Made by a program: the position numbers and the translations under genes | Shown here: in pieces, positions 702 to 25,649 of the stretch | Position numbering within the stretch: the first letter of the stretch is position 1 | Layout of the letters: every line of letters starts with the position of its first letter | The notes under the pieces: model-generated | Told to the model about the DNA's origin: nothing | Databases searched by the model: none | The model's input: the letters and a program-made list of their open reading frames with translations, nothing else | From: Clostridium sp. DSM 17811 | GTDB taxonomy: Bacteria; Bacillota; Clostridia; Clostridiales; Clostridiaceae | Length of the DNA stretch: 64,000 nucleotides | Direction: 5' to 3' | Assembly (NCBI RefSeq): GCF_018861905.1 | Contig: NZ_JAHLDU010000018.1 | Span: 1 to 64,000, forward strand

Positions 702-1724
702 CTAAAATGCTTTTCCAAAACCACAATTTGGATAAGTACATGTTTCACAATTTCTACATAGACCTCCATGAGCTAACTTCTTAATATCACTTCTAGTAGG
801 CTTATCTCCTGCCATAATTCTTGGTATAATCAAATCAAAAATACTTATCTTATGATACATTACGCATCCTGGCAAACCAACAACAGGAATATCACCAATA
901 TATGCAAGCAAAAACATCGCGCCTGGAAGAACAGATGCGCCATAAGTTACAACTTTTCCTCCTGCTTTGCGAATGCCAGAAGGTGTTCTGTCATCTCGGT
1001 CTACAGACATACCACCTGTAACTGCTACCATGTCTACTTTTTCGAATAGTAACTGCTTAATAGAATCTGCAATCATATCATCATTATCATCAGATATTAT
1101 TTGATGAACAACTGTGCTTCCCAATAAACCAAACTTTTTATCTAAAATAGGACCGAAAGCGTCTTTTATTCTTCCATGATAAATTTCGCTTCCTGTAGTT
1201 ACGAGACCTACCTTAAGTGATTTTAATGGTGTTACTTTAATAATCGCATTATCCAAACATACAGTTTCCGCTGTGCTTACGATTTTTTCACGTATAAACA
1301 GTGGTATAACCCTTGTGCCTGCCACTACCTGTCCTTGTTTTACTACTTGATTTTTGTGAAGTGTAGCAAACACAACCTCCTCTTGATCAATAAGTTCCAT
1401 AAGCTTGTCCACATCAATTTGAAGCAGACCATCATACAATGCTACTAGCTCAATTTTGCCCTCACCTTTAACTTTAAGTTCAATGCCTATGCCTGCCGCT
1501 GCTTTTGCTATTCTAATTGCTGCTTCATCCTCATGTACCCCATCATCTTCCAAGTTAATAACGAACAAATTTTCTTTTCCCATCTCAAGAAGTACTGGGA
1601 TATCTTGCTCCTTAACCACATACCCCTTTTTAAATCGGCTTCCCTTATATTTCCCGGGAATAATTTGTGTCATATCATGTACTAAAACCATACCTACAGA
1701 ATCATAAACGGAAACTGTCTTCAT
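702..1724 (-). CDS. Molybdopterin-binding protein (MoeA/MogA-like domain)
   Basis: This 340-residue protein contains a MoCF-biosynthesis (MogA/MoeA-type) fold: GLVTTGSEIYHGRIKD is the nucleotide/molybdopterin-binding start, followed by DMVAVTGGMSVDRDDRTP and VVGLPGCVMYHK. The tail has four cysteines in CRNCETCTYPNCGFGK, a possible metal or Fe-S site not found in housekeeping MoeA. Stand-alone versions are common next to selenium-dependent Mo hydroxylase genes in Clostridia. A role in handling or inserting the Mo cofactor of the nearby dehydrogenases is inferred. The ATG follows TAGGAGGATAACAAAT. It lies downstream of dpaL beyond a weak hairpin and may have partly separate transcription. Confidence 0.8.
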   Translation of the reverse strand: MKTVSVYDSVGMVLVHDMTQIIPGKYKGSRFKKGYVVKEQDIPVLLEMGKENLFVINLEDDGVHEDEAAIRIAKAAAGIGIELKVKGEGKIELVALYDGLLQIDVDKLMELIDQEEVVFATLHKNQVVKQGQVVAGTRVIPLFIREKIVSTAETVCLDNAIIKVTPLKSLKVGLVTTGSEIYHGRIKDAFGPILDKKFGLLGSTVVHQIISDDNDDMIADSIKQLLFEKVDMVAVTGGMSVDRDDRTPSGIRKAGGKVVTYGASVLPGAMFLLAYIGDIPVVGLPGCVMYHKISIFDLIIPRIMAGDKPTRSDIKKLAHGGLCRNCETCTYPNCGFGKAF

Positions 1725-1798
1725 ATTTGTTATCCTCCTATATTTTCTATGGCATACTTTTTCAAAGCCACATTTTTTTTGTTATTCAAAGTTAAAAT

Positions 1799-1818
1799 CC
1801 ATCAGATTTCTCTGATGG
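1799..1818 (-). terminator. Weak hairpin between dpaL and the molybdopterin-binding gene
   Basis: CCATCAGA (1799-1806) and TCTGATGG (1811-1818) form a perfect 8-bp stem with a four-base loop. The minus-strand tail is only ATTTT, so this may be a leaky terminator that lowers expression of the distal gene. Confidence 0.45.
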
Positions 1819-1897
1819 TAAAAATATTCTAACATACTAGACAATACCATATTTTTTCTAAAAATAAGTGTTTGAATTTTTTACATATGTTTTATAG

Positions 1898-3121
1898 TTA
1901 TATACTTGCATATGCTCCATCCCAAACTATTTTCTTATAATTAATTGGATCAGTATCTCCCTCTGTACTTATTACAAGTATTTTTGAATCTTTATTTATA
2001 TTTAATTTCTTAGCTATTTCTTTTAAATTACTATCTCCTAAAATCAAGCTCACCATTCCCAAACAAACTGCGCCAGATTCTCCAGATGTAACTTTAGGAT
2101 CTCCCTTTAATGGATTCCCAAGTATTCTCATACCCCTCGCTGTTACATAATCAGGACAAGAGATATACATATCAGCATAATCTCTTAAGATTCCCCAGCT
2201 AACAATATTAGGTTCTCCACATGCAAGTCCAGCCATTATTGTTGGCATATATCCTGTCACTGCATGAGCTTTTCCATCTCTTTCTTTAACAGAGTTAAAT
2301 ATACATGCTGCTTCGTTTGGTTCAACTATAGTAGTTATTGGTCTATCTGCGCCAAATTCAGCTGCTAAATATCCTTGTATACTTCCAGCAAAAGAACCTA
2401 CACCTGCTTGCAGAAATACATGAGTAGGAATATCTCCTTGCTCTTTTATCTGCTGCAACGCTTCATCTATAAGTGTTGCATATCCTTGCATAATCCAAGT
2501 TGGAATATCTGTATAACCTTCCCATGCACTGTCTTGTACCATTACTCCATTATGCTGATGCGCATATTTATTTGCGAGTCTTACTGCATCATCATAATTT
2601 AAATCTGTTATAGAAGCTTCTGCTCCTTCTTTTCTTATATTATTTAGTCTTACCTCTGATGACCCTTTTGGCATAAATACTACTGATTTTTGTCCTAACA
2701 TCTTTGCTGCCCAGGCAATTCCTCTACCATGATTACCATCAGTTGCTGTAACAAAGGTAATATCTCCCAGTTTTTCTTTGATTTCTTTAGACCTAAGTTT
2801 TTCAAAAGAAAGCTCAGAAATATCCATATTTAATTTGTCTGCTAGGTATTTACCAACAGCATATGAACCACCCAGTACTTTAAAAGCATTTAGTCCAAAT
2901 CTATAAGATTCATCTTTCACCCATATATTACCGACTCCTAACTCTTTAGATAATTCCTTTAAACTATGAAGTGGCGTTACTTTATATTCTAAAAAGCTTT
3001 TATGGAAACTTCTAACCTTTTTAACTTCTTTCTTATCAATAAATTCTACAGATGCTTTCTTATTATCTACTTTTCTCGAATCTTCATTAGTAATGTATTT
3101 TATTGATTCTACATCTCTCAT
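1898..3121 (-). CDS. dpaL: Diaminopropionate ammonia-lyase (YgeX)
   Basis: This PLP enzyme splits 2,3-diaminopropionate into pyruvate and two ammonia molecules in the cytoplasm. At 407 residues it is close to the E. coli enzyme (398). The PLP lysine is K81 in NAFKVLGGSYA, and TATDGNHGRG and QAGVGSFAGS match the substrate and phosphate-binding loops of fold-type II enzymes. The start follows AGGAGAGGTTGTT. It sits 36 bases after the TetR gene and probably shares its promoter. In purine clusters of gut anaerobes this is the last step that yields pyruvate. Confidence 0.95.
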   Translation of the reverse strand: MRDVESIKYITNEDSRKVDNKKASVEFIDKKEVKKVRSFHKSFLEYKVTPLHSLKELSKELGVGNIWVKDESYRFGLNAFKVLGGSYAVGKYLADKLNMDISELSFEKLRSKEIKEKLGDITFVTATDGNHGRGIAWAAKMLGQKSVVFMPKGSSEVRLNNIRKEGAEASITDLNYDDAVRLANKYAHQHNGVMVQDSAWEGYTDIPTWIMQGYATLIDEALQQIKEQGDIPTHVFLQAGVGSFAGSIQGYLAAEFGADRPITTIVEPNEAACIFNSVKERDGKAHAVTGYMPTIMAGLACGEPNIVSWGILRDYADMYISCPDYVTARGMRILGNPLKGDPKVTSGESGAVCLGMVSLILGDSNLKEIAKKLNINKDSKILVISTEGDTDPINYKKIVWDGAYASI

Positions 3122-3157
3122 AACAACCTCTCCTATACAATGTATTTTATTATAAAA

Positions 3158-3742
3158 TCATTTTCTTATAATTTTACCAAATATCATTTTTTCTGCTAAA
3201 TTAAAATATTCATCTAGATCAAATTTGCCCTCATCAATAAGATATTGCAAAGAAGCTCCTAACATTAAGGACACAGTTAAATATGGCAACATGTCCAAAT
3301 ACTTTTGATCTGTGTCTTCTATTTGATCACCTTTACTTAAAACCTCTCGAATACTCTCACGCCAAATTTCAAACGTATTTTGAAACTTTAATCTTATTTC
3401 TTCATTCACTGTTCCTTGAACCCAATAATCAATTTGTGTATAATCAAATTTTTTCTTGTTGAGAATATCATTTTTTTTCTGATCAAAAAAGCCTCTAATA
3501 TTTTGGTTTACAGTTTTATTTTCCAAACTAATATAATTTTTACGATCATTAGAAAATTCTTCTTGCATCTTATCTAAAAGAGAAATCAATATATCATTTT
3601 TTGATGTGAAATGATAATGTAAATTCGATTGACTCATATTAGCCTCCTGCGCAATCATACGCATACGAGTACCACTAATCTTCTCTTTCGACACGATTTC
3701 CATTGCAGCATCAAGTATCTTTTGTTTAACATCATTAGACAT
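3158..3742 (-). CDS. TetR-family transcriptional regulator
   Basis: This 194-residue protein has a classic TetR N-terminus: QKILDAAMEIVSKEKISGTR, then a helix-turn-helix MRMIAQEANMSQSNLHYHF, then a variable helical ligand domain. I place the start at ATG 3742, after GAGAGAGG; an in-frame extension up to 3895 would run through the gene's own promoter and into the permease gene. It lies between the purine permease and dpaL, so it probably controls the purine operon or its own unit. The ligand is unknown; a purine or breakdown product is an inference. Confidence 0.85.
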   Translation of the reverse strand: MSNDVKQKILDAAMEIVSKEKISGTRMRMIAQEANMSQSNLHYHFTSKNDILISLLDKMQEEFSNDRKNYISLENKTVNQNIRGFFDQKKNDILNKKKFDYTQIDYWVQGTVNEEIRLKFQNTFEIWRESIREVLSKGDQIEDTDQKYLDMLPYLTVSLMLGASLQYLIDEGKFDLDEYFNLAEKMIFGKIIRK

Positions 3743-3823
3743 AAAATAATATCCTCTCTCTCTTGTAATATTTAAAATCGTAAACAAATTTATAATTTTT
3801 CTTGCTTTAAATGTTTCAATATT

Positions 3824-3852
3824 ATTATATAATTTTCCAATTTTAATTACAA
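3824..3852 (-). promoter_or_regulatory. Promoter for tetR-dpaL
   Basis: TTGTAA (3847-3852) and TATAAT (3824-3829) are separated by 17 bases on the minus strand, inside the 145-base gap after the permease gene. This would give the regulator and dpaL transcription independent of the long upstream operon. The same TTGTAA -35 sequence occurs in the promoter of the rightward permease gene at 24123. Confidence 0.65.
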
Positions 3853-3887
3853 CTTTATTTCCACCACTAAGGCACGATTTTATAATT

Positions 3888-5312
3888 TTACACAAAAGGA
3901 AGTAAAATATATCTTAGAAGGAACAATACGGCAAGTATATATACAATTGGACTCAGTTCCTTTTGCCTACCTGTGGCTATTTTCATTATTGGGTAGAAAA
4001 TCATAGCAGCTGCAATTCCATTAGCTATACTATAAGTAAAAGGCATTAGTGCTATAGTAAAAAACGCTGGAAGTGCTTCTGTAAAGTCATCGAAATTTAT
4101 ATTTTTAATGGTAGACATCATTAAAACGCCTACTATCACAAGTGCTGGTGCTGTTGCCTGCCCAGGAACCAATCCAACAAGGCCTGAGAAAAATAGTGAT
4201 AGAATAAACAATACTCCTACTGTTACTGAAGTAAGTCCAGTTCTTCCTCCTTCTGAAACGCCAGCTGTAGATTCAACATATGTTGAAACTGTACTTGTTC
4301 CTAAGAAAGCACCTGCAGTTGTTGCTACTGCATCACACAAAAGGGCTTTTTTCATTCTTAGCACCTTACCATTCTCGTCAAGCATCCCTGCTTTTGTAGC
4401 AGTTCCAACAAGTGTTCCAATAGTATCAAAAAGATCAACTAAACAAATTGTTATAACAACCATAAAAACGCTAAGAATAGCACCACCTACCGAAGTACCT
4501 CCTTTTGATAAGAGACCACTAAAATCAAATGCTGCAAATGTAGGAGCAAGTGATGGAGGTGCACTGAAAACATGTATATTTGCAAGGGATGTAATTCCAA
4601 GTGGAATACCTATTATTGTGGTTGAAATTATTCCAATAAGAATTGAACCCTTAACCCCTCTAGCCATCAATATACCCGTTATTGTAATTCCTATTATAGT
4701 AAGAAGCGTCCCTGCCTTTGTAAAGTTTCCAAACCCAACTAATGTTGCTTGATTTGCAACTATTACGCCACCAGATTTAAGTCCAATAAGAGCTATATAT
4801 AATCCAATACCTCCAGATATTGCATACTTTAGATTTTGAGGTATCGCATCAACTATCTTCTCTCGTATCGAAGTTACTGTAATAATTATGAATAATATTC
4901 CTGACATTAATACGCATGATAACGCCTGATGCCAAGTAAATCCTAGTGTTAAACATACTGTATAAGTGAAAAACGCATTAAGACCCATCCCTGGAGCCTG
5001 AGCAAAAGGCAAATTAGCATAAAATCCCATTATAAATGTACCAATAGCAGCTGCAAGGCAAGTAGCTACAAAAACAGCTGATACTATTGGGTCAGTACCT
5101 ACAGTAAACTTTGTAGCTGCATCACCTATTGCGTTTGCTGAGTTCATACCAGCTAGTTTTAGAATATTAGGATTAACAAATATAATGTACGCCATTGTAA
5201 CAAAAGTAGTGATTCCAGCAAGTATTTCTGTCTTTACATTCGATTTATTTTCCTTCAAATGAAAATAAGATTCCAAAAATGAAGATTTCTCTTTAACTAT
5301 ATCGATTTTCAT
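3888..5312 (-). CDS. NCS2 purine permease, AzgA/PbuG type
   Basis: This 474-residue membrane protein has about 12-14 hydrophobic segments. It carries family features of the AzgA/PbuG branch of NCS2: the N-terminal TEILAGITTFVTMAYIIFVNP, FAQAPGMGLNAFF, and the ESTAGVSEGGRTGLTSV stretch. These proteins import adenine, guanine or hypoxanthine with protons. Next to guanine deaminase, guanine or hypoxanthine uptake is the likely job. The ATG follows GGGGGTTATTTT, 36 bases after guaD. Confidence 0.92.
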   Translation of the reverse strand: MKIDIVKEKSSFLESYFHLKENKSNVKTEILAGITTFVTMAYIIFVNPNILKLAGMNSANAIGDAATKFTVGTDPIVSAVFVATCLAAAIGTFIMGFYANLPFAQAPGMGLNAFFTYTVCLTLGFTWHQALSCVLMSGILFIIITVTSIREKIVDAIPQNLKYAISGGIGLYIALIGLKSGGVIVANQATLVGFGNFTKAGTLLTIIGITITGILMARGVKGSILIGIISTTIIGIPLGITSLANIHVFSAPPSLAPTFAAFDFSGLLSKGGTSVGGAILSVFMVVITICLVDLFDTIGTLVGTATKAGMLDENGKVLRMKKALLCDAVATTAGAFLGTSTVSTYVESTAGVSEGGRTGLTSVTVGVLFILSLFFSGLVGLVPGQATAPALVIVGVLMMSTIKNINFDDFTEALPAFFTIALMPFTYSIANGIAAAMIFYPIMKIATGRQKELSPIVYILAVLFLLRYILLPFV

Positions 5313-5348
5313 AAAATAACCCCCAAAATTATAATTTATTATCGATTT

Positions 5349-6635
5349 TTAAAAAAAACATTCCGGTTCTTCTATTTCTCTGCCAGCTACATATCTTACT
5401 TTAATGTTTCTATCGTCCCCAGCATAAATAAACCTTTGTAACCTTTCTTCTATTGAAAATGCTTTAAAAGTTGGCATACTACTGTCATCAATAACTAGAG
5501 CATCAAATGCGTATCCCTCTTCAAAACTACCCACTTTCCCAAAAAATTCTCCTCCACCTTTTGTTGCAAGATAAAATAATTCTGCTATGTTCAAAGGCTT
5601 ATCTACTCTACCACTTTCAATCCATTTTATATTTGACACCTGCGCAGCACTTACTATTATATCCATCATTGATAATGAATTTCCTGCTGATATATCACTT
5701 GCAAGGCCTACTTTAACTCCTTTTTCAAGCAATTTTCTAATAGGCGCATTGCCACTTGCTAAATTACAATTTGAACTAGGACAATGTGCTATAAATACCT
5801 TTTTTCTTGCCAAAAGTTCTATTTCATCTGCATCAACCAAAACACAATGAGCCATTATAGTAGGTACATCTCCAAGTAATCCAACTTCATTATAGACACT
5901 CGTATAGTTTTTACAATTTGGGTGAAGTTCTTTAACAAAACTTATTTCACCATAATTCTCACTCAAATGTGACTGTATAGGAGCATTATATTTTTTCGCA
6001 AGAATTCCAAGATTTTTTAAAAGATCAAAACTACAGCTTGGAACAAATCTCGGTGTTACTATAGGTTTTACTAACTCATATTTGTTTGTGTATTCTTTAA
6101 GTATTTCCTCTGTATCACGAATTGACTCCACTGCTGTTTCTGTTAAATCTTGTGGAGAATTTCTGTCCATATTAACTTTCCCTACATATGCTGATAGGCC
6201 AGCTCGCGCAAACATATCCATTAGTAACTTTGTTGACTTTTTATGGATTGTAGCAAAAACACATGACCTTGTTGTTCCAAATTTCCACAATTCTCTTATT
6301 AAAGATGAGTATACTTTTTTAGCATAACTAATATCTACATATTTAGCTTCCTCAGGAAAAGTATACTCTTCAAGCCATGGCATAAGTTCCTTATCGAGTC
6401 CAAGTCCTAAGTTTGCAAACTGTGATGCATGCAAATGTATATCTACAAATCCAGGTATTATCATTGCATTCCCATAATCTATTACTTTTAAATCACTAAA
6501 TTCTTCATTAAGTTTTTTATAAACACCTTTTACAAGATTGCCTTGCACTACTATATATCCATTCCTAATTACCTCATATTCACCAAATACTTTAGTAAAT
6601 ATGATATTTCCTTTAACTGCATAATCAATGCGCAT
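5349..6635 (-). CDS. guaD: Guanine deaminase
   Basis: This 428-residue amidohydrolase converts guanine to xanthine plus ammonia. The zinc-binding HxH is H67 and H69 in GFVDIHLHASQF, a signature of GuaD. Further metal or catalytic residues are in PIQSHLSEN, IMAHCVLVD and GLASDISAGNS. FVPSCS and CPSSNCNLASG are also typical of the family. The start codon follows a GGGGGG run. Its product feeds the xanthine dehydrogenases on the other arm of the locus. Confidence 0.93.
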   Translation of the reverse strand: MRIDYAVKGNIIFTKVFGEYEVIRNGYIVVQGNLVKGVYKKLNEEFSDLKVIDYGNAMIIPGFVDIHLHASQFANLGLGLDKELMPWLEEYTFPEEAKYVDISYAKKVYSSLIRELWKFGTTRSCVFATIHKKSTKLLMDMFARAGLSAYVGKVNMDRNSPQDLTETAVESIRDTEEILKEYTNKYELVKPIVTPRFVPSCSFDLLKNLGILAKKYNAPIQSHLSENYGEISFVKELHPNCKNYTSVYNEVGLLGDVPTIMAHCVLVDADEIELLARKKVFIAHCPSSNCNLASGNAPIRKLLEKGVKVGLASDISAGNSLSMMDIIVSAAQVSNIKWIESGRVDKPLNIAELFYLATKGGGEFFGKVGSFEEGYAFDALVIDDSSMPTFKAFSIEERLQRFIYAGDDRNIKVRYVAGREIEEPECFF

Positions 6636-6677: not shown

Positions 6678-8063
6678 CTACTTATTTATCTTTCTAAAAA
6701 TATATTTACCAAGAGGTTCTTTTTCAACCAGTTCCCCATTAGAAATTACTTTATTTCCTCTTAAAAACTCATGTAGTACTCTACCCTGTTGCTCAAATCC
6801 TTCAAAAAGATTGTAATCTACCTTTTGAGTTTGATTAACAGCTGTAATATATGATTTAAAATTAGGATCCCAAACTACTATATCTGCATCACTTCCAATA
6901 GAGATTGTTCCTTTTTGTGGAAACATTCCAAATGTTTTTGCTGCATTAGTTGAAGTTATTGCAACCATTTCATTTATACTTATCTTGCCACTTACTACTC
7001 CATAAGTATAAATTAGCCCCATTCTATTCTCCACACCTGGCGCTCCATTTGGAATTTTTGTGAAGTCGTTAATTCCAATATCCTTTTGCCCTTTGTAATT
7101 AAAAGAACAATGATCTGATCCAATAGTTTTTATTTCTCCCTGGCTTATGCCTTTCCACAATGCTTCCTGATCATAATCTTTTCTAAGTGGAGGTGAGATC
7201 ACAGATTTTGCTCCCTCAAAACTATCACTCTTTTCTTCTCCATAACATGAATCATTTAAAAGTAAATACTGAGGGCAAGTTTCAACAAAAACTTTTACTC
7301 CTCTTTTTTTAGCATCAAGAATACTTAGTAAACCTTCTCTTGAACTTAAATGCACAATATATACTGGTGTATCCATAATCTCTGAAAAATTTAAAAGTCT
7401 TGTTATAGCTTCTCTTTCAGCTTCAACAGGTCTAGTCTTAGCATGGTAGTAGGGAGTAGTATGATTCTTAATTTTTGCTTCACTTATAAGTTCATCAATT
7501 ACATCTCCATTTTCACAGTGAAAGCATATCAATGTTTTGGTTTTTCTGCTTTTATTAAGTGCTTTTAATATTACTCCATCATCCACTTGAAGATTACCCT
7601 TGTAAGCCATATATAGCTTAAATGAAGTTACTCCTTCATTGATCATTTCTTCCATTTCAAGTGCTACTTCATCATTCCAATCGGTGATACCCATATGGAA
7701 ACCATAATCACAGTAACAAACTCCAGCAGATTTTTCATGTTGTGCATGAAGAGCCTCTTTTAAAGACCCTCCCTTATTTTGAGTTGCATAATCGATTATT
7801 GTAGTAGTTCCACCAACAATTGCAGCTTTTGTTCCACTTTTGAAATCATCTGCTGTTGTCATAGTGCCCACATTTAAAGCAAAATGTGTATGAGTATCTA
7901 TTCCACCAGGAATAATATAACAACCATGAGCATCTATTATTTCGTCATCTGTTTTTCCTAAATCACTACCAATTGATCCAATTTTATCGTTTTCTATTCG
8001 CACATCTGCATAATAAGCATCCACTGCAGTTACGACTTTACCGCCAATGAGCAAAATACCCAA
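6678..8063 (-). CDS. hydA: Dihydropyrimidinase / D-hydantoinase (YgeZ-like)
   Basis: This 461-residue cyclic-amide hydrolase has the two-zinc site of the family: H58 and H60 in GGIDTHTH, the lysine that is carboxylated at K149 in SFKLYMAYKG, then YIVHLSS and IGSDHCSF. In purine clusters it is proposed to open an oxidised purine or a hydantoin-like ring. The start is TTG at 8063, eight bases after AGGGAG; no better ATG lies nearby. It is in operon with carbamate kinase upstream and guaD downstream, with 42-base gaps. Confidence 0.92.
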   Translation of the reverse strand: MGILLIGGKVVTAVDAYYADVRIENDKIGSIGSDLGKTDDEIIDAHGCYIIPGGIDTHTHFALNVGTMTTADDFKSGTKAAIVGGTTTIIDYATQNKGGSLKEALHAQHEKSAGVCYCDYGFHMGITDWNDEVALEMEEMINEGVTSFKLYMAYKGNLQVDDGVILKALNKSRKTKTLICFHCENGDVIDELISEAKIKNHTTPYYHAKTRPVEAEREAITRLLNFSEIMDTPVYIVHLSSREGLLSILDAKKRGVKVFVETCPQYLLLNDSCYGEEKSDSFEGAKSVISPPLRKDYDQEALWKGISQGEIKTIGSDHCSFNYKGQKDIGINDFTKIPNGAPGVENRMGLIYTYGVVSGKISINEMVAITSTNAAKTFGMFPQKGTISIGSDADIVVWDPNFKSYITAVNQTQKVDYNLFEGFEQQGRVLHEFLRGNKVISNGELVEKEPLGKYIFRKINK

Positions 8064-9056: not shown

Positions 9057-9074
9057 TTTATATTCCTCCAAAAA

Positions 9075-15983: not shown

Positions 15984-16033
15984 AAATATCACTCCCTATT
16001 ATAAATAAATAAACCAAAAATGTAATTTAAAAC

Positions 16034-16047
16034 CAACTGACTAGTTG
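16034..16047. promoter_or_regulatory. Candidate operator dyad near the ygeW transcription start
   Basis: CAACT (16034-16038) and AGTTG (16043-16047) form a short dyad immediately downstream of the ygeW -10 element. The position, overlapping the expected start of transcription, suits a repressor site. The TetR protein encoded in the operon or the ModE-like regulator encoded opposite are candidate binders. Binding is an inference only. Confidence 0.4.
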
Positions 16048-16267: not shown

Positions 16268-16295
16268 TTATAAATAAAATAAGGGGGTGTCAATC

Positions 16296-17249: not shown

Positions 17250-17366
17250 ATTTCAGAATTTTATAAAAACCAAGTTCTTTTCACAAACAATTTGATAAAA
17301 AATCACCTCTGCTTTATAATGAATCTTATAACAAATAAGTATTTTTTTGTAAATGGGAGGTTGTTT

Positions 17367-19934
17367 ATGTTTACCTTAAATGTCAATGGCAAAGATTCAG
17401 TTTCTAATACGGACAAACCTTTATTGTCTTATTTAAGAGATGATTTAAGAATTACTTCTGCAAAAGATGGTTGCAGTGAAGGTGCCTGCGGAACGTGTAC
17501 CGTTTTAATAGATGGAAAAGCGGTAAAAGCATGTGTACAGAAAGTTTCTAAATTTGTAGGAAAACATATTCTAACAGTTGAAGGCTTAAGCCCTCACGAA
17601 AAAGAAGTTTATGAACATTGTTTTGCAGAGGCTGGTGCAGTTCAATGTGGTTTTTGCATTCCTGGAATGATAATTTGTGCAAAAGCATTACTTGATACCA
17701 ATTTAAATCCAACAAGAATAGATGTGAAAAAAGCAATTAATGGCAACATTTGTCGTTGTACTGGTTATAAAAAAATTGAAGAAGCTATTTTAATGGCGGC
17801 AAAATATATAAGAGATAATCTTCAAATACCGGTCTCTCCAAGTGAATTGAAAATGGCACAAAGATTTAAACGTGTTGATGCAGCTGAAAAAATAAATGGA
17901 ACAGGCATTTTTGTAGATGACATTGAATTACCTGGTATGATTTATGCAAAAGCCATTCATTCTAAATATCCAAGAGCTATTATAAACAAAATTGATATTA
18001 GCAAAGCCGCGGCTCACCCAGACTGTGTGAAAATTTTACTAGCTAAGGATGTTCCGAGTAATGTTATTGGGCATATAAAACAAGACTGGGATGTACTTAT
18101 GGCTGAAGGTGAAACTACCAGGTATGTAGGAGATGCACTAGCACTTGTAGCAACATACCATAAAGATAAACTAGATGAAGTATGCCAATTAGTTGAAGTT
18201 GATTACACCGAGTTGAAACCGATTACGTCACCAACAGATGCTTTAAAGGCGGATTCACCTTTAATTCATGTCGATGGAAACATCATGAGCCGTGCTATTC
18301 TTCAACGTGGAAATGCAGCAGAGGCAATTAAAAATTCTAAATATGTAGTAACAAAAAAATATCGAACGCCACCTCAAGAACATGGATTTATGGAGCCTGA
18401 GTGTGCAATCGCTATGCCTGAAGGAAAGGATGGAATCTTGCTATACTCAGGTTCACAGTCTGTGTATGATGAACAACGTGAAATATCAAATATGCTTCAA
18501 ATTCCTCAAGATAAAGTACATTGTCATTCCCAGCTTGTTGGAGGTGGATTTGGTGGCAAGGAAGACATGAGTGTTCAACACCATGCAGCATTAATGGCAT
18601 GGCATACTAAAAAACCAGTTAAAGTCAAATTCACAAGACAAGAAAGTTTAGATTATCATACTAAGCGTCATCCAATGGACATGGAGTTTACTCTAGCATG
18701 TGATGAAAAAGGTTATTTAACAGCAATGAAAGGTTTTATTATAGCGGATACAGGTGCATATGCATCTCTCGGTGGACCTGTATTAGAGAGAGCATGCACA
18801 CATGCAGCTGGACCATACAATTACCAAAATATTGATATTTTGGGTATGTCAGTCTATACTAATAACGTTGTTAGTGGAGCTTTCAGAGGATTTGGTGTAA
18901 CACAAAGTTGCTTCGCTACTGAAAATAATATTAACCTACTCGCAGAGATGGTAGGTATTACGCCTTGGGAAATCCGTTATCGTAATGCAATACGTCCTGG
19001 TCAAGTATTACCAAATGGTCAAGTAGCAGATGAAAGTGTCGCTATGGCTGAATGTTTGGAGGCTATTAAAGATGTATACGAATCAAGTCCATATGCAGGT
19101 CTTGCTATAGCATTAAAAAATAGTGGAACAGGTGTAGGCAACAAGGACATTGGGCGTTGCATTTTATCCATCGAAGACGGTAAAGTTCATATTCGAACCT
19201 CTGCTGCATGTATGGGGCAAGGTATTGCAATAATGTGTACTACTGTGCTTTGTGAAACAACTGGCTTAGATCCTGCTCTTATTATCCATGAAAGAGCGGA
19301 TACTGTTCGTACCCCTAATGCAGGAACTAGTACTGCTTCTAGGCAGACCGTAATGACTGGAGAAGCTATAAGGCGAGGGTCTGAAAAATTGAAGATAGAA
19401 TTAGATAAGGGATTAACGCTTAGTGATTTGGAGGGACAAGAATTTTATGGAGAATATTCTGCAAAGACAGATCGTATGGGTGCTATAAAAGAGAATCCAA
19501 TTAGCCATGTAAGTTATAGTTATGGAGCTCAAGTTGTTATCCTAAATAAGGACGGAAAAGTTGAAAAAGTGGTTGCGGCATTTGATGTTGGAACACCAGT
19601 TAATATCCAATCTGTTGAAGGACAAATTGAAGGCGGCATAGTCATGGGCCTTGGATATGCAATGACTGAGGAATTTAAAGTTGAAGAAGGTTATCCTAAA
19701 ACAAAACTAGGTACACTAGGGCTTATGAGAGCAAAGGATGCTCCAAAGCTTGAGGTTATTCTTGTACATGCTAAAGGAAAAATCCCTGAAACTTATGGAG
19801 CCAAAGGTTGTGGCGAATTATGTTTGATTCCAACAGCTCCGGCATGTTCCCATGCTTATTACAGATTAGATGGCAAATTACGTACACAACTACCATTAAA
19901 AGATACATTTTATAAAAAGTCGAAGAATAAATAA
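17367..19934 (+). CDS. Selenium-dependent xanthine dehydrogenase type: fused [2Fe-2S]/molybdenum subunit
   Basis: This 855-residue protein fuses two parts of a Mo hydroxylase. Residues 1-160 hold two [2Fe-2S] domains: C36, C41, C44 and C56 form the plant-type cluster, and QCGFC with CRCTG the second. From about residue 165 follows the Mo-binding subunit with VGGGFGGKED, SGAFRGFGVTQ and the catalytic glutamate in KGCGELCLIP. No FAD domain is present. The architecture and neighbours match the selenium-dependent XDH family; the labile Se ligand cannot be seen in sequence. It would hydroxylate xanthine or a related purine. Start ATG 17367 follows GGGAGGTTGTTT; a longer frame upstream lacks a ribosome site. 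Confidence 0.88.
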   Translation: MFTLNVNGKDSVSNTDKPLLSYLRDDLRITSAKDGCSEGACGTCTVLIDGKAVKACVQKVSKFVGKHILTVEGLSPHEKEVYEHCFAEAGAVQCGFCIPGMIICAKALLDTNLNPTRIDVKKAINGNICRCTGYKKIEEAILMAAKYIRDNLQIPVSPSELKMAQRFKRVDAAEKINGTGIFVDDIELPGMIYAKAIHSKYPRAIINKIDISKAAAHPDCVKILLAKDVPSNVIGHIKQDWDVLMAEGETTRYVGDALALVATYHKDKLDEVCQLVEVDYTELKPITSPTDALKADSPLIHVDGNIMSRAILQRGNAAEAIKNSKYVVTKKYRTPPQEHGFMEPECAIAMPEGKDGILLYSGSQSVYDEQREISNMLQIPQDKVHCHSQLVGGGFGGKEDMSVQHHAALMAWHTKKPVKVKFTRQESLDYHTKRHPMDMEFTLACDEKGYLTAMKGFIIADTGAYASLGGPVLERACTHAAGPYNYQNIDILGMSVYTNNVVSGAFRGFGVTQSCFATENNINLLAEMVGITPWEIRYRNAIRPGQVLPNGQVADESVAMAECLEAIKDVYESSPYAGLAIALKNSGTGVGNKDIGRCILSIEDGKVHIRTSAACMGQGIAIMCTTVLCETTGLDPALIIHERADTVRTPNAGTSTASRQTVMTGEAIRRGSEKLKIELDKGLTLSDLEGQEFYGEYSAKTDRMGAIKENPISHVSYSYGAQVVILNKDGKVEKVVAAFDVGTPVNIQSVEGQIEGGIVMGLGYAMTEEFKVEEGYPKTKLGTLGLMRAKDAPKLEVILVHAKGKIPETYGAKGCGELCLIPTAPACSHAYYRLDGKLRTQLPLKDTFYKKSKNK

Positions 19935-19986
19935 TATAGAATAAAGAATATAAATAAGCATAGCATTTAGAAAGTGAGGCATGCAA

Positions 19987-20610
19987 TTGGAAACTAATGG
20001 TATCATACTGGTTGCTGGTTTATCAAGTCGTATGGGAGAATTTAAACCACTTTTAAAGATAGATGGTAAAACTATGATTGAACACAGCGTTGATAGCATG
20101 CTCTATTCTGGTGTAAATCAAGTCATTGTTGTCTTAGGATATCGAGGTGAAGAAATTGAAGTTCTACTGAAAAGTAAATATGATACCTCTAGGTTAGTAT
20201 TTACACATAACCTAAAATATGCAGAAACAGACATGTTAGCCTCTGTAAAAATTGGAATCGCGGCACTTAATAACTGTGATGCATTTTATCTCCTTCCAGG
20301 AGATATGCCAGCAATTGATACTAAAACCTTTCTTGAGGTTAAGGAAACCATGGTAAAGAGTAATGCTATGATAGTATTTCCTACTATTGATGGGCACCGT
20401 AAACATCCACCCTTGGTTTCACAAAGTTGTATAAATTATATACTTCAGTTTCAAAATGATGGTGGTCTTCGTGAGGTATGGAAATTTTTCGAAAATGAAA
20501 TAAAAACAGCTCCTGTTGATGACTACGGTTGCACAATTGATGCTGACACAAAAGCAGATTATCATAGGATTGTTAACTACATGGAGAGTAAGAGTAATTA
20601 TAAAGTTTGA
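19987..20610 (+). CDS. mocA: Molybdenum cofactor cytidylyltransferase (MocA-type)
   Basis: This protein of about 207 residues is an intact MobA/MocA-fold nucleotidyltransferase: LVAGLSSRMGEFKPLL is the CTP/GTP loop, and LLPGDMPAID holds the metal-binding aspartate. It would add CMP to molybdopterin to make the dinucleotide cofactor used by xanthine dehydrogenases. It lies between the two dehydrogenase operon parts. The TTG at 19987 is seven bases from GAGG, while the ATG at 19981 is only one base away, so TTG is preferred; both are in frame. Confidence 0.88.
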   Translation: METNGIILVAGLSSRMGEFKPLLKIDGKTMIEHSVDSMLYSGVNQVIVVLGYRGEEIEVLLKSKYDTSRLVFTHNLKYAETDMLASVKIGIAALNNCDAFYLLPGDMPAIDTKTFLEVKETMVKSNAMIVFPTIDGHRKHPPLVSQSCINYILQFQNDGGLREVWKFFENEIKTAPVDDYGCTIDADTKADYHRIVNYMESKSNYKV

Positions 20611-20656
20611 GGTGTTTATACAAATACCTATTAATTAAATGTATAGGAGGAACTAA

Positions 20657-22771
20657 ATGGAATCTATTAGTAATTCTGTAAAGAAAAAAGACCATGATAC
20701 AAAAATAAACGGTCGTGCACTTTATGTAGATGATCAAGTTATGGAGGGTATGAATTATGGTAGACTATTACACTCCGCAAAGGCAAAGGCACGTATAACA
20801 AATATTATTCTTCCTGAATTACCAAAGGGTTATTTTATTGTTGACAAAAATGACGTACCAGGTATAAACCTCGTTCACATTGTTCTTGATGATACTCCTG
20901 TTTTTGCCAATGATACAGTAGAATATGTTGGTGATCCGATTTTGATGGTTGTCGGTCCAGATTTAAAAAAAGTAAATAAAATATTAAATGAAATTGTTGT
21001 TGTATATGAAGAACTAGTACCAATTCTTGACATGCTTAAATCTGATACTGTTTTTTTTAACTATAACTTTGAAAAAGGAGATATAGATAAGGCCTTAAAA
21101 GAAGCTGATCATGTTTTCATAGAGACTTTTCAAACTGGTTACCAGGAACAAGCATATCTTGAAACACAAGGTATGATTGCTTATCCTCATGATGGACGAA
21201 TTACCGTACGTGGTTCTATGCAGTGCCCCTACTATATAAAAGGTGCAGTTTCCAAAGCAATGGGTTATGAAGACAAGGATGTCCAAATTATTCAAGATGT
21301 TACTGGTGGTGGATTTGGTGGCAAAGAAGCGTTCCCATCAATTCTAGCTTGTCAAATTGCTGTAGCCGCAAAAAAAGCAAACAAACCAGTTAAAATAATT
21401 TTTGATAGACGAGAAGATATGGAATACACTTCAAAACGGCATCCATCTATTAGCACATATAAAGTAGCTATTAAGGACAATAGAATTACTGGTATGGATG
21501 TTGATGTTATGTTTAATGGTGGAGCATATACCACACTTTCGGCTGTTGTTTTGCAGCGAGGTTTAATTTGTTCAAATGGTGTATATCGCATAGATAATCT
21601 TCGCGTTGCTGGGCGTGCTATGAAGACAAATACTGTACCTTGTGGCGCATATCGTGGCTTTGGTGCACCTCAAACTTTTTTTGCAGTAGAAATGATCATG
21701 GATCATATCTCAAAAAAAATGGAGATTGATTCCCTTGAACTTAAAGAAAAGTATATGGTTAAACAATATGATTCTACTTCTACAAGTGGCAAATATCATT
21801 TCCATGTGCCCCTACCTGAAATGATAGAGCGAATTGATGTTCTTACTGATTACCGTGCAAAACGAGAATTATATAAGAATCAAACTGGCAGATATCACAA
21901 AGGGATTGGTCTGTCTATGTATTACCATGGATGTGGTTTTACTGGTAGTGGAGAGAGAGATTTAATTAAGGCCGTTGCTAAAATCAGGAAAAACAAGGAT
22001 GATACAGTAGACATTCTCGCAAGCAACGCAGATATTGGTCAAGGCTTAAAAACTACCTTCTGTAAAATTGTTGCGGATACCCTAGGAATTTCTTACGATA
22101 GGGTATTAAATATTAATCCAGATACAGATCTTGTTCCAGATTCAGGTCCAACTGTTGCAAGCCGCTCGCTAATGACCGTTGGAGAATTACTTAAGCGTGC
22201 AGCGAAGCGACTTAAGACGGAATGGAAATCCGGAGAAGAACAAATTATAGAAGAACATTTTGTTGAACCTGATTTTGTAATCCCTTTTAGTATAGAGAAA
22301 TTCAGAGGAGATGCATATCCAACCTATTCATGGTCTGTTAATGTTATTGAAGTAGAAGTAGACACACTTACAGCCACTACAGAAATTCTTGGAGCATGGG
22401 GTATTTTTGATGTCGGTGTTCCGATTGATATGAATATAATACTCGGACAGATGCAAGGTGGATTCCTTCAGGGTATTGGTTATGCCTCCATGGAACAAAT
22501 GGATTACAATGATAAAGGCATGATTCGTAATAATAATTTAAGTGATTATACAATACCAACATCCGTTGATGTACCAAATCTTGTGACTGAAATAATGAAT
22601 AATCCATATACCCACGGCCCATATGGAGCAAAAGGTGCAGGAGAACTTCCTCTCGTTGGAGCGGCTCCAGCTTATGTTGAAGCAATGGAAAATGCGCTTT
22701 GCGAAAACCTATATAAAGCTCCATTTACAACAGAAGATACCATGAAAGTACTACAAAGGGGGCTTAAATAA
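20657..22771 (+). CDS. xdhA: Xanthine dehydrogenase-family molybdenum-binding subunit
   Basis: This 704-residue protein has the Mo hydroxylase large-subunit layout: an a/b hammerhead domain first, then TGGGFGGKEAFPS, CGAYRGFGAPQTFF, DIGQGLKT and the catalytic glutamate in YGAKGAGELPLVG. It forms an operon with separate Fe-S and FAD subunits, overlapping the next gene by one base, so the enzyme is a three-subunit type as in E. coli XdhABC. Substrate specificity (xanthine, hypoxanthine or another N-heterocycle) is not decidable here. The start follows TAGGAGGAACTAA. Confidence 0.9.
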   Translation: MESISNSVKKKDHDTKINGRALYVDDQVMEGMNYGRLLHSAKAKARITNIILPELPKGYFIVDKNDVPGINLVHIVLDDTPVFANDTVEYVGDPILMVVGPDLKKVNKILNEIVVVYEELVPILDMLKSDTVFFNYNFEKGDIDKALKEADHVFIETFQTGYQEQAYLETQGMIAYPHDGRITVRGSMQCPYYIKGAVSKAMGYEDKDVQIIQDVTGGGFGGKEAFPSILACQIAVAAKKANKPVKIIFDRREDMEYTSKRHPSISTYKVAIKDNRITGMDVDVMFNGGAYTTLSAVVLQRGLICSNGVYRIDNLRVAGRAMKTNTVPCGAYRGFGAPQTFFAVEMIMDHISKKMEIDSLELKEKYMVKQYDSTSTSGKYHFHVPLPEMIERIDVLTDYRAKRELYKNQTGRYHKGIGLSMYYHGCGFTGSGERDLIKAVAKIRKNKDDTVDILASNADIGQGLKTTFCKIVADTLGISYDRVLNINPDTDLVPDSGPTVASRSLMTVGELLKRAAKRLKTEWKSGEEQIIEEHFVEPDFVIPFSIEKFRGDAYPTYSWSVNVIEVEVDTLTATTEILGAWGIFDVGVPIDMNIILGQMQGGFLQGIGYASMEQMDYNDKGMIRNNNLSDYTIPTSVDVPNLVTEIMNNPYTHGPYGAKGAGELPLVGAAPAYVEAMENALCENLYKAPFTTEDTMKVLQRGLK

Positions 22772-23238
22772 TGATAAAGTTTATACTTAATGGAAAAGAT
22801 ATTACATCCATTGCCAATGCAAATCAGAGATTGCTGGATGTACTTCGAAATGAGTTTCACATAACTGGAGTAAAATGTGGCTGCAAAGAGGGAGAATGCG
22901 GTGCTTGCTCTGTCATTCTTGATGGGAAATTGGTTAACTCTTGCATGGTAGCTATGGGCAGCATAGAAGGAAGTACTGTTATTACCATTGAAGGTTATCG
23001 CGAAACAAAACGTTTTGATGTTCTTAGTAGCGCATATTCATCTGTTAGTGCTGTCCAATGTGGATTTTGTATTCCTGGGATGATACTAGCGTCTGAATGT
23101 ATACTTGTCAAAAATCCAAATCCCACTGAAGCAGATATTCGTGATGGGATTTCTGGAAATCTTTGTAGATGCACCGGATATAATTCAATAGTTAATGCAA
23201 TTGGTATTGCAGCAAAGGAGGGGAAAGGATTATGGTAA
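22771..23238 (+). CDS. xdhC: Xanthine dehydrogenase-family [2Fe-2S] subunit
   Basis: This 155-residue protein carries two [2Fe-2S] centres. The N-terminal plant-type cluster has CGCKEGECGACSV plus the later C of VNSCMV, and the C-terminal helical cluster has VQCGFCIPG and LCRCTG. It passes electrons from the Mo centre to the FAD subunit. Its ATG overlaps the stop of the large-subunit gene, and its last codons overlap the FAD gene by seven bases, so the three are translationally coupled. The symbol follows E. coli usage and is not the XdhC accessory factor. Confidence 0.92.
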   Translation: MIKFILNGKDITSIANANQRLLDVLRNEFHITGVKCGCKEGECGACSVILDGKLVNSCMVAMGSIEGSTVITIEGYRETKRFDVLSSAYSSVSAVQCGFCIPGMILASECILVKNPNPTEADIRDGISGNLCRCTGYNSIVNAIGIAAKEGKGLW

Positions 23239-24050
23239 ATAAATATCTACCAACATCGCTTAAAGTAGCATTAGACATCCTTGCAACTGAAGTCGTCACT
23301 CCTTACGCTGGAGGTACGGATTTAATGATTAAACCAGATGAAAATGTAAACTATTTGTTTCTTAATAAAGTAACTGAGATGAAAAACATTGTAGAAGATG
23401 ATAAGTATATCCGTATTGGTGCTGCCTGCAGCTTTACTGATATTATTGAAAATAAACTTATACCTAGCATTCTAAAGGAAGCATCAGCAGAGATTGCAGC
23501 GCCAGCAATCCGTAACTTAGGTACTGTAGGTGGTAATATTTGCAATGGATCTGCTAAGGCTGACAGTGCATTAATCTTTTTCTTGGCGAACTCTAAATTA
23601 CGTCTTGTAAGTAACAAAAGTGAGCGTGTAATTCCAATTACTGAATTCTATCTAGGTAAAAAAAAGACTTGCATTCATTCTGATGAACTACTAGTTGAAA
23701 TTCTTATGAGTAAAACAGGTCTTAATAATTATTATTATAAAAAGGTCGGTGCAAGAAATGCTTTGGCTATCGCGAGAGTATCTTTTGCTGGAGTTCTTAA
23801 TGTACAAAATGGTAAAATTTCTAGCTGCTCTACTGCATTTGGTGCAGTAAGTGATGTTATCGTAAGACGGGCTGATATCGATGTTATGCTTGTTGGCAAA
23901 ACTATTGAAGAAGCTAAAATTGTAAAAGAAGATTATCTTAAAAAATACGATCAGGAGATTGTTCCTATCAAAGGTAGAATTTCTGCTGAATATAGGAAAA
24001 CTGTATGTATGAATTTACTTCGTGACTTTCTTGAAAGCAATGGAATTTAA
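23232..24050 (+). CDS. xdhB: Xanthine dehydrogenase-family FAD-binding subunit
   Basis: This 272-residue protein has the CoxM/XdhB FAD fold: the pyrophosphate loop YAGGTDLMIK near residue 30 and the AAPAIRNLGTVGGNICNGS loop near residue 95, the two most conserved FAD-binding segments. It would pass electrons to NAD or a similar acceptor. It is slightly short for the family but no domain is missing. It is the last gene of the rightward dehydrogenase operon; the next gene has its own promoter. Confidence 0.9.
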   Translation: MVNKYLPTSLKVALDILATEVVTPYAGGTDLMIKPDENVNYLFLNKVTEMKNIVEDDKYIRIGAACSFTDIIENKLIPSILKEASAEIAAPAIRNLGTVGGNICNGSAKADSALIFFLANSKLRLVSNKSERVIPITEFYLGKKKTCIHSDELLVEILMSKTGLNNYYYKKVGARNALAIARVSFAGVLNVQNGKISSCSTAFGAVSDVIVRRADIDVMLVGKTIEEAKIVKEDYLKKYDQEIVPIKGRISAEYRKTVCMNLLRDFLESNGI

Positions 24051-24087
24051 TTCGTAATATTAATAACCTTAGCACATTTAAACACAA

Positions 24088-24135
24088 ATTCAGTTTACAA
24101 ATATATTTATTTTATTGATTAATTGTAAACTGAAT
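24088..24135. repeat. 13-bp inverted repeat at the permease promoter
   Basis: ATTCAGTTTACAA (24088-24100) and its exact complement TTGTAAACTGAAT (24123-24135) are separated by 22 bases. The right arm contains the -35 element of the permease promoter. It could be an operator or, as RNA, a terminator hairpin of the xdh operon, but only a short T run (24141-24143) follows, which favours the operator reading. Confidence 0.6.
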
Positions 24136-24151
24136 GTTGCTTTACTATAAT
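24123..24151 (+). promoter_or_regulatory. Promoter of the xanthine/uracil-type permease
   Basis: TTGTAA (24123-24128) and a perfect TATAAT (24146-24151) are 17 bases apart. The start would be near 24158, giving a leader of about 120 bases. I looked for a purine riboswitch in that leader and saw none. Confidence 0.7.
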
Positions 24152-24278
24152 AAAATCAGCCTAATTAATTAGAATGAAGGTGGAGAGATTAACGTTTTTG
24201 TTATTGCCATGTAGTTAATGTGTAAACAATACACTCTTTTAACATTAAAAATTCATATCTTATTAGGGGGTTATATCC

Positions 24279-25649
24279 ATGTCAAAAGTAAAAAACGTAG
24301 ACATTGTAAAGATAGACAAAGTAAATGAAATGCTTCCAATTGCTCAACTTGCTACGCTAGGCCTTCAACATGTCCTAGCGATGTATGCAGGTGCAGTTGC
24401 TGTGCCTCTAATTATTGGTGTTGCTGTTGGTTTAACACCAGCCCAACTTTCATTTCTAGTGGCTGCTGACTTATTCACTTGTGGTATTGCGACACTATTA
24501 CAAGCAATTGGAATAGGATCCTATGTAGGAATTAGGCTACCCGCAATTTTAGGTTGTACCTTTGCAGCTGTTGGCCCACTAATCATTATAGGAAAAAGTT
24601 TAGGAATGCAAACTGCCTATGGCTCAATAATGGTCGCCGCAATCATAGTTATACTTATTGCACCATTATATGGTAAGATACTAAAGTTTTTTCCGACTAT
24701 AGTTACGGGCACTGTTGTTACAATGATTGGTCTTTCCTTAATTAATGTTGGTGTGACTAGTATTGGTGGTGGTTCTCAACTTCTAGGATCAAAAAATTTC
24801 GCAAGTCCAAGAAATCTTCTACTTGCTGGCTTTGTAATGATCGTAGTTCTTCTTTCAAATAAATATTTCAAAGGATTTTTTCAGGCGATTTCTATTCTAA
24901 ATGGAATAGTTTTAGGAACTATAGCCGCATCATTTATGGGAACGGTCGATTTTTCACAGGTTGCAAATGCAAAGTGGATAAGTTTAGTACATCCTTTTAA
25001 CTTTGGTTTGCCTAAATTTGATTTAGGTTCGACAATTATGATGACTTTTGTAATGCTTGTAGTAATGATTGAATCAACAGGAACATACCTTGGTATAGGT
25101 AAAGTCTGTGGTAAGGATATAACACAGAAAGATATTGTACGTGGACTTCGCGCAGAAGGAATTGCAACATTTTTAGGTGGCATATTTAATTCCTTTCCTT
25201 ATACCACATTCAATCAAAATTTAGGACTTTTGGCACTTAGCAAAGTAGTAAGCCGTTTTGTTGTTATCGCTTCTGGTATCATTCTTATTGCGCTTGGCTT
25301 GATTCCCAAATTTGCAGCCTTAGCTACAATTGTTCCTCAACCAGTTATTGGAGGAGCTACGACTATAATGTTTGCAATGGTTGCAGTAGCCGGAATACAA
25401 ATGCTTGCAAAAGTAGATTTTAGTAGAAATTCAAATATGTTAGTTGTTGCCTGTTCTATTGGGATAGGCCTTGGAATTACTGCTGTACCTACCTTATTTG
25501 AACAAACACCTACAATTTTTAAGTCTATATTTAGTAGTGGCATAGTTTCTGCTTCAGTAGTTGCGGTGTTACTTAATGCTTTCATGAATCACGATGATAA
25601 AAATGCTCACACCGATATAAAACTCTCTGAAACAAATTTGGATGCATGA
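24279..25649 (+). CDS. NCS2 xanthine/uric acid/uracil permease (PbuX/XanQ type)
   Basis: This 456-residue membrane transporter has about 14 hydrophobic segments and NCS2 hallmarks: LGLQHVLAMYAGAVAVPLIIG at the N-terminus, a conserved ESTGTYLGIGKVCGK loop, and FPYTTFNQNLGLL after it. The branch includes bacterial xanthine and urate permeases, and the location beside two xanthine dehydrogenases supports xanthine or urate import. The start follows TTAGGGGGTTATATCC. It differs in branch from the AzgA-type permease of the opposite operon, so the locus encodes two complementary purine importers. Confidence 0.92.
   Translation: MSKVKNVDIVKIDKVNEMLPIAQLATLGLQHVLAMYAGAVAVPLIIGVAVGLTPAQLSFLVAADLFTCGIATLLQAIGIGSYVGIRLPAILGCTFAAVGPLIIIGKSLGMQTAYGSIMVAAIIVILIAPLYGKILKFFPTIVTGTVVTMIGLSLINVGVTSIGGGSQLLGSKNFASPRNLLLAGFVMIVVLLSNKYFKGFFQAISILNGIVLGTIAASFMGTVDFSQVANAKWISLVHPFNFGLPKFDLGSTIMMTFVMLVVMIESTGTYLGIGKVCGKDITQKDIVRGLRAEGIATFLGGIFNSFPYTTFNQNLGLLALSKVVSRFVVIASGIILIALGLIPKFAALATIVPQPVIGGATTIMFAMVAVAGIQMLAKVDFSRNSNMLVVACSIGIGLGITAVPTLFEQTPTIFKSIFSSGIVSASVVAVLLNAFMNHDDKNAHTDIKLSETNLDA

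Follow-up and report, generated by a model that had tools for sequence, protein, structure and literature searches.

A divergent purine catabolic locus of Clostridium sp. DSM 17811 with a probable selenium-independent urate reductase

The window analysed here, a stretch of 64,000 nucleotides from Clostridium sp. DSM 17811 (RefSeq assembly GCF_018861905.1, contig NZ_JAHLDU010000018.1, positions 1 to 64,000), contains at positions 702–25649 a divergent gene cluster for the catabolism of purines. The genes ygfK, ssnA, hyuA, ygeW, ygeY and ygeX, which make up the reductive urate pathway set, all lie within this one cluster, together with a fused Fe-S/Mo hydroxylase that is a member of the TIGR03311 sequence family. 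The selenium genes selD, yqeB and yqeC were not found in the genome, and the fused hydroxylase falls within a branch of its family designated here as branch B. The locus is most probably (about 0.7) a reductive purine pathway that operates without selenium and in which urate would be reduced by a sulfur-type enzyme of branch B.

Selenium genes in the genome and its relatives

The joint presence of selD, yqeB and yqeC serves as a marker of the selenium-cofactor trait (PMC9312934). Profile searches of the genome of DSM 17811 (5.19 Mb in 98 contigs, completeness 100%, contamination 2.68%) gave no match at E 0.001 to either yqeB (TIGR03309) or yqeC (TIGR03172), and no selD above the cut-off of 125 bits. 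The best selD candidate (35.8 bits; L001 in our numbering, where G, L and C precede genomes, loci and contigs) was rejected, as it is below the cut-off and lies directly downstream of a hypC-like frame; because of this position it is read as hypE, both hyp names being our own reading. The initial annotation, made from the window alone, had matched the gene set to selenium-linked purine clusters of anaerobes and proposed a genome-wide search for the three genes. That link is not borne out, the genes being undetected here as well as in G061, G083 and G120, three sister species that carry the cluster too. Absence of molybdenum cofactor and selenium genes had also been named there as a sign against purine use; the selenium genes are indeed absent, but since the branch of the hydroxylase occurs in many genomes without selD, purine use is not thereby refuted.

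A survey of 194 genomes of the same family revealed TIGR03311 proteins above the cut-off in 67, selD in 123 and yqeB in 65, and in none of the 194 was yqeB found without selD. Eight of the 67 genomes with a TIGR03311 protein have no selD, namely that of the window, G061, G083 and G120 of the same genus, and G152, G176, G143 and G036; yqeB is missing from the same eight and from G136 and G145 (10/67). A phylum-wide draw of 398 genomes yielded 43 with TIGR03311, the window's included. Among the other 42, selD was present in 39 and yqeB likewise in 39: G338 and G408 are without both genes, G587 is without selD only and G221 without yqeB only.

Ten members of the window's genus possess selD and the same ten possess yqeB, and yqeC was present in all of the seven that were searched for it (7/7); the genus thus normally keeps the selenium set. 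Nine of these ten also encode a TIGR03311 protein above the cut-off, 54–55% identical to the enzyme of the window, with yqeB a few kilobases away from its gene. An rpoB tree was computed for 23 genomes, G112 having yielded no full rpoB. In it, the genus's seven species without selenium genes group as a single clade, nested among the selenium-using members, with a support of 94/94, which is just below the program's threshold for sure branches. The possibility that the three genes are merely missing from the assembly draws on its 98 contigs and its contamination of 2.68%. Against it stand the completeness of 100% and the six further species of the clade that are likewise without all three genes, two of them assembled in 2 (G083) and 4 (G127) contigs; on account of these few-contig relatives an assembly gap was rejected as the cause, and it is hardly credible.

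Hence selD, yqeB and yqeC were probably lost once, in the ancestor shared by these species. The B-type enzyme is present in four of the seven selenium-less species, and no TIGR03311 protein above the cut-off was found in the other three (G127, G132 and G144). As the seven constitute one nested clade, a single loss after which the B-type enzyme would have replaced the selenium-type one is the simplest account.

From ygeX to pbuX, the divergent cluster recurs in G061, G083 and G120, where the fused hydroxylase is 84–97% identical to that of the window. The rpoB of the window's genome is identical to that of G083, and the host is taken to belong to the group of cold-adapted Clostridium that includes C. 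psychrophilum. The MoeA-like gene adjoins the cluster in G120 only; the contig of G061 ends at this point, and the stretch of G083 revealed no such gene. It was considered whether the cluster might be a decaying or idle remnant left behind by the loss of selenium, as the ygfK frame of C. psychrophilum DSM 14207 (G120; L024, 13635–15374) has 580 amino acids against 1005 in the window, and the NCS2b and tetR matches are split in G061, a genome that retains the two Mo hydroxylases of the locus. However, each frame of the cluster in the window matches its own family over approximately the full length, the proteins from ArcC to PbuX are 84–98% identical among the window, G061 and G083, and decay would not explain the different enzyme branch in place of the selenium-type enzyme. 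Decay therefore seems quite improbable.

Near kin of the genus's B-type enzyme occur in further Clostridium genomes and in Desulfosporosinus hippei, whose enzyme shares 84% identity with that of the window. The locus of D. hippei DSM 8344 (L169), in which this B-type hydroxylase is accompanied by a MocA-ModE fusion (described below), mocA and xdhABC, looks like a transfer between distant families.

The only PF13478 (XdhC) gene of the window's genome, at C4:261078, codes for an XdhC-related maturation factor and lies within a separate Mo-hydroxylase locus of the aldehyde oxidoreductase type (L131, C4:243000–262900). This second locus, which adjoins lactate permease, lactate racemase and acryloyl-CoA reductase-like genes, further encodes an aldehyde oxidoreductase (NF045668), a dicluster protein, members of the DVU_1551 and DVU_1553 families and a protein of the TrsS radical SAM "(seleno)protein" family, the latter as an open frame of 437 amino acids in a genome without selD.

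Branch B of the TIGR03311 family

Two hydroxylase trees were computed, one of 95 fused hydroxylases and one of 175 rows, the latter by quick search and without bootstrap. The enzyme of the window is placed within branch B, which comprises 55 rows of the 175-row tree and is supported by 98% in the Shimodaira–Hasegawa-like approximate likelihood ratio test. With identical sequences merged, branch B holds 51 distinct sequences (27 in genomes without selD, 20 in genomes with selD, 4 untested) and the remainder of the tree 113 (4, 83 and 26, respectively). The share of selD-less genomes is consequently 27/47 among the tested sequences of branch B versus 4/87 outside it (Fisher p = 9e-12), a comparison which ignores the incompleteness of metagenome bins and, like the other Fisher tests given here, is not corrected for kinship. 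When only survey genomes are counted, selD is absent from 7/19 genomes with a B enzyme versus 4/90 without one (p = 4e-4), and yqeB from 9/19 versus 4/90 (p = 1e-5). Among the matches listed there are 80 named loci; for 46 of them the genome was searched for selD, which was missing for 22 of the 33 loci whose enzyme is at least 64% identical to that of the window, and for none of the 13 below this value (p = 3e-5). The isolates among the matches listed show the same tendency (3/7 versus 0/12; p = 0.036), the three selD-less ones being C. psychrophilum, Propionispira raffinosivorans and Pectinatus haikarae. According to their record titles, several branch-B loci among the matches listed come from rumen, reticulum and ileum bins. 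The selD-less rows require 16 changes on the 175-row tree, with untested rows counted as not selD-less, so that selD was probably lost several times.

Branch B is also set apart by its gene neighbourhood. In genomes with yqeB, the distance between this gene and the hydroxylase gene is 25 kb or less for 0/10 B genes versus 60/96 others, where 24 of the 96 non-B genes are outside the trees and each is nearest to a non-B row. In stretches of at least 12 kb, yqeB is found beside 1/47 B rows versus 14/43 others, and XdhC beside 11/47 versus 10/43. In G004 and G116, two selenium-using genomes that carry a B enzyme, the enzyme beside yqeB is XdhD-like.

A number of observations nevertheless weigh against a selenium-free function of branch B. 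Genomes with selD account for 20 of the 47 tested branch-B sequences, and 19 of the 22 selD-less B-like genomes are metagenome bins, which may be incomplete. Non-B enzymes, too, occur in genomes without selD and yqeB (G143, G408 and bin G036), so the loss of selenium genes is not special to B. One B enzyme, that of Kribbibacterium absianum (L196), has yqeB within 10 kb. B cannot be told from the other enzymes by the active-site residues that were compared, and no PF13478 XdhC match was found anywhere in the G061 genome, which leaves the sulfuration of molybdenum there unexplained.

Nine alignment columns differ between B and the rest; a residue marker for the branch was rejected, as none of the nine could be linked to selenium. 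The non-B TIGR03311 enzymes of G143, G408 and G036 adjoin purine genes, and G143 and G036 are without yqeC as well.

An alternative is that the enzyme is still selenium-dependent and that selenium reaches molybdenum without SelD or YqeB, for instance as selenide through a cysteine desulfurase. The compared active-site residues are common to the selenium-type relatives, and a strict selenium dependence of urate reduction was raised as one hypothesis by Johnstone and Self (PMC11448449). On the other hand, C. difficile needs selD and yqeB to grow fully on xanthine and urate, mutants in the two genes losing the growth benefit of urate (PMC11448449); furthermore, the genus normally keeps the whole set, and the survey has no branch-B gene with yqeB within 25 kb. 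Such a bypass is regarded as improbable, and the molybdenum of the fused hydroxylase probably bears an ordinary terminal sulfur.

The predicted pathway and the genes of the locus

According to Li et al. 2025 (PMC12507026) and to a commentary by Percudani that covers Liu et al. (PMC12990295), urate is converted to 2,8-dioxopurine by XdhD-YgfM in E. coli or XdhAC in C. sporogenes, YgfK and SsnA then give ureidomethyl-hydantoin, HyuA gives diureidopropionate, YgeW yields carbamoyl phosphate, YgeY 2,3-diaminopropionate and YgeX pyruvate. The cluster of the window offers a candidate gene for each of these steps, and the route from purines to pyruvate, with ATP gained through carbamoyl phosphate, had been drawn correctly in outline by the initial annotation. 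Guanine and (hypo)xanthine would enter through the two NCS2 permeases, GuaD would deliver xanthine and XdhABC would oxidise it to urate, which the fused hydroxylase would reduce to 2,8-dioxopurine. YgfK and SsnA would subsequently reduce and open the ring, HydA, YgeW, ArcC and YgeY would lead to 2,3-diaminopropionate and ATP, and YgeX to pyruvate and ammonia. The description of the locus as complete applies to guanine, xanthine and urate; no adenine deaminase was noticed among the genes annotated.

The division of labour between the two hydroxylases in this scheme is a prediction. The fused hydroxylase could act on another purine or in the reverse direction, e.g. in xanthine or hypoxanthine oxidation, and urate could be reduced by XdhABC or by neither enzyme. 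In favour of this, the TIGR03311 family is named xanthine dehydrogenase (XDH), clostridial XDHs are reversible (PMC11448449), and both hydroxylases of the window lack the insertion in which Glu606 of E. coli XdhD resides. Against it, XdhAC of C. sporogenes reportedly converts urate to 2,8-dioxopurine (PMC12990295), and its name, to which the papers add nothing on this point, suggests a fused Fe-S/Mo protein of the TIGR03311 kind, akin to the enzyme of the window. The fused enzyme is 24% identical to E. coli XdhD. Moreover, it is XdhA, and not the fused enzyme, that has a Phe aligned with Phe1009 of bovine xanthine oxidase. An altered substrate or direction is considered unlikely, and the preferred reading is a fused protein that would reduce urate beside an XdhABC that would oxidise xanthine. 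Glu606 itself was discarded as a marker of urate reduction, as it is located within an XdhD-only insertion of the alignment and is uninformative.

The genes of the cluster (Table 1) were annotated by NCBIfam and Pfam scans with the curated NCBIfam cut-offs, and identities refer to E. coli MG1655. The genes named by the initial annotation were recovered at their positions and strands, with eight catabolic families on the minus strand above the cut-offs, and the two Mo hydroxylases it had reported are indeed the fused enzyme and XdhABC. The latter matches its Pfam domains, and XDH models match it below their cut-offs. The proposal of NCS2 importers from two branches holds as well: the permease at 3888–5312 is nearest to GhxQ (29% over 316 amino acids, E 2e-30, the GhxQ sequence being only partial) and PbuX to XanQ (30% over 469 amino acids, E 3e-46), and the two have no significant match to each other. 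The fused hydroxylase likely starts at the in-frame ATG at 17367, and the real start of the TetR-family regulator is probably downstream of the TTG. Homologues of the MoeA-like protein adjoin some selenium-type loci too (L032, L033).

Table 1. Features of the purine locus in the window (FAD, flavin adenine dinucleotide).
Feature	Position	Strand	Evidence
MoeA-like protein, MoCF_biosynth domain, Cys-rich C-terminus	702..1724	-	Pfam PF00994, 73.9 bits
ygeX/dpaL, diaminopropionate ammonia-lyase (to pyruvate, predicted)	1898..3121	-	TIGR03528, 646 bits, cut-off 532; 53% to E. coli YgeX
TetR-family regulator	3158..3895	-	PF00440; orthologues adjoin several branch-B loci
NCS2 permease, GhxQ branch, guanine/hypoxanthine predicted	3888..5312	-	PF00860; nearest E. 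coli GhxQ
guaD, guanine deaminase	5349..6635	-	TIGR02967, 388.5 bits, cut-off 375.4; 33% to E. coli GuaD
hydA/hyuA, hydantoinase, ureidomethyl-hydantoin step predicted	6678..8063	-	TIGR02033, 579 bits, above cut-off; 39% to E. coli HyuA
arcC, carbamate kinase (ATP from carbamoyl phosphate, predicted)	8106..9071	-	TIGR00746, above cut-off; 50% to E. coli YqeA
ygeY, ureido hydrolase	9075..10295	-	TIGR03526, 698 bits, above cut-off; 72% to E. coli YgeY
ssnA, ring-opening aminohydrolase	10375..11703	-	TIGR03314, 700 bits, above cut-off; 34% to E. coli SsnA
ygfK, predicted 2,8-dioxopurine (yanthine) reductase	11736..14753	-	TIGR03315, 1522 bits, above cut-off; 43% to E. coli YgfK
ygeW, ureido carbamoyltransferase (makes carbamoyl phosphate, predicted)	14790..15992	-	TIGR03316, 787 bits, above cut-off; 68% to E. 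coli YgeW
Palindrome CAACT-GACT-AGTTG, candidate repressor site	16034..16047		conservation and promoter scan
Degenerate MocA domain fused to ModE helix-turn-helix, putative cofactor-sensing regulator	16287..17249	+	NF045665, TIGR03310, TIGR00637, all below cut-off
Fused Fe-S/Mo hydroxylase, branch B, predicted urate to 2,8-dioxopurine reductase	17292..19934	+	TIGR03311, 1326.7 bits, cut-off 830.45; trees
mocA, Mo-cofactor nucleotidyltransferase, intact motifs LVAGLSSRMG and PGDMP	19981..20610	+	PF12804; TIGR03310 (below cut-off)
xdhA, Mo subunit of classical xanthine dehydrogenase	20657..22771	+	PF02738/PF20256; aligns to bovine xanthine oxidase over 660 amino acids
xdhC-type [2Fe-2S] subunit	22771..23238	+	PF01799/PF00111
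xdhB, FAD subunit	23232..24050	+	PF00941/PF03450
pbuX, NCS2 xanthine permease, XanQ branch	24279..25649	+	TIGR03173, 510 bits, above cut-off

Elsewhere in the window, two tandem T-box leaders on the minus strand (44065–44240 and 44403–44668; Rfam RF00230, 97.5 and 103.9 bits) precede a thiamine pyrophosphate enzyme of the acetolactate synthase type (42041–43705), and a CHASE4-GGDEF-EAL cyclic di-GMP protein is encoded on the minus strand at 54018–56360.

The MocA-ModE fusion and the wider family

The gene facing ygeW had been called mocA in the initial annotation, which holds for one half of its product: a MocA-like domain is present, but its motifs are lost and it is joined to a ModE-type winged helix-turn-helix (TIGR00637, E 7e-18, though below the curated cut-off), the intact MocA being encoded downstream of the fused hydroxylase. 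The motifs LAAGxSxRMGxxK and PGDMP, seen in E. coli MocA and in the intact MocA of the window, are taken here to be those of MocA cytidylyltransferases, with their Asp, Lys and Arg presumably catalytic. In the fusion of the window they are replaced by VATGWTSGENEPH and FNPVSI. An alignment of 30 fusions (28 distinct, counting that of the window), each from a locus or genome with a branch-B hydroxylase, revealed that the Asp of PGDMP is changed to Asn, Ser or Thr in 30/30, while the Lys that follows the loop is missing from 30/30 and the Arg of SxRMG from 29/30; a distant fusion from a B locus (L184) keeps most of the motifs. The AlphaFold2 model of the fusion, built with 17 sequences in the alignment, consists of two domains (mean predicted local distance difference test score 86.1, predicted template modelling score 0.82). 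In a profile search against solved structures the first half matched the MocA-like 3d5n and 2we9 and the second half the ModE structures 2ijl, 1b9m and 1o7l. ModE carries a C-terminal molybdate-binding domain; no such domain is found in the fusion, which ends after the helix-turn-helix. The protein thus resembles both E. coli ModE and E. coli MocA (YgfJ) in its two halves, and differs from them in being one chain without the MocA motifs. Judging from its sequence, it is probably a regulator that would sense Mo-pterin or cytidine triphosphate (CTP) through a dead enzyme domain. Its assignment to the DVU_1551 family was rejected, the match being below the cut-off; the one full DVU_1551 protein scanned, from L131, has no ModE match.

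The fusion and the TetR protein may together regulate the locus. The palindrome of the ygeW–fusion intergenic region is situated just downstream of a promoter-like site on the minus strand (16081–16053), in a scan that found 5 sites versus 3.3 expected, and would suit the TetR protein as a binding site. Its 12-base core is exact in four selenium-less members of the genus with the cluster. A search of 241 loci, many without coverage of this region, returned the core in no further locus, and a symmetric variant nowhere; as the core was not found outside the four genus members, the case for a regulatory site is weak.

The locus shares with the reductive uric acid pathway of E. coli and C. sporogenes xdhABC, ygfK, ssnA, hyuA, ygeW, yqeA/arcC, ygeY, ygeX and guaD (33–72% identity to E. 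coli). It differs in the absence of selD, yqeB and yqeC and in having a TIGR03311 enzyme instead of XdhD, with no YgfM, and it adds the fusion, the TetR regulator and a GhxQ-branch permease inside the operon. With the selenium-dependent molybdenum hydroxylases described by Haft and Self 2008 (PMC2276186) it has in common a TIGR03311 enzyme above the cut-off beside the same purine genes, whereas the three selenium genes were not found and the enzyme is of a separate branch, rarely linked to yqeB. The EF2563–EF2582 cluster of Enterococcus faecalis (Zhang et al. 2008, PMC2432076; PMC2276186) likewise contains a fused hydroxylase, MobA-like and ModE-like proteins, a permease, arcC and ygeW; it possesses, however, selD together with yqeB and yqeC homologues, and its ModE (EF2572) and MobA-like protein (EF2569) are separate genes.

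In an open-access library, to which the literature search was confined, no description of a selenium-free TIGR03311 enzyme or of a MocA-ModE fusion was found. A hydroxylase tree mentioned by Zhang et al. 2008 as data not shown did not separate users of the selenium trait (PMC2432076); with more genomes, one branch stands out as rarely beside yqeB and often in selD-less genomes. It may tentatively be proposed, at somewhat less than even odds, that selenium-free urate reduction is widespread, i.e. that this TIGR03311 branch uses ordinary sulfur and has repeatedly allowed the loss of selD, yqeB and yqeC with purine catabolism kept, often under the control of a dead MocA-ModE fusion that would read the pterin cofactor or CTP and not molybdate. 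The name "selenium-dependent XDH", which NCBIfam gives to TIGR03311 and which is passed on to proteins of selD-less genomes, should be taken as an annotation warning. The breakdown of uric acid by gut bacteria is relevant to gout. The locus is suited to testing the hypothesis of strictly selenium-dependent urate reduction, and matched clusters with and without selenium genes within one genus would provide a natural test of the role of selenium in this reaction.

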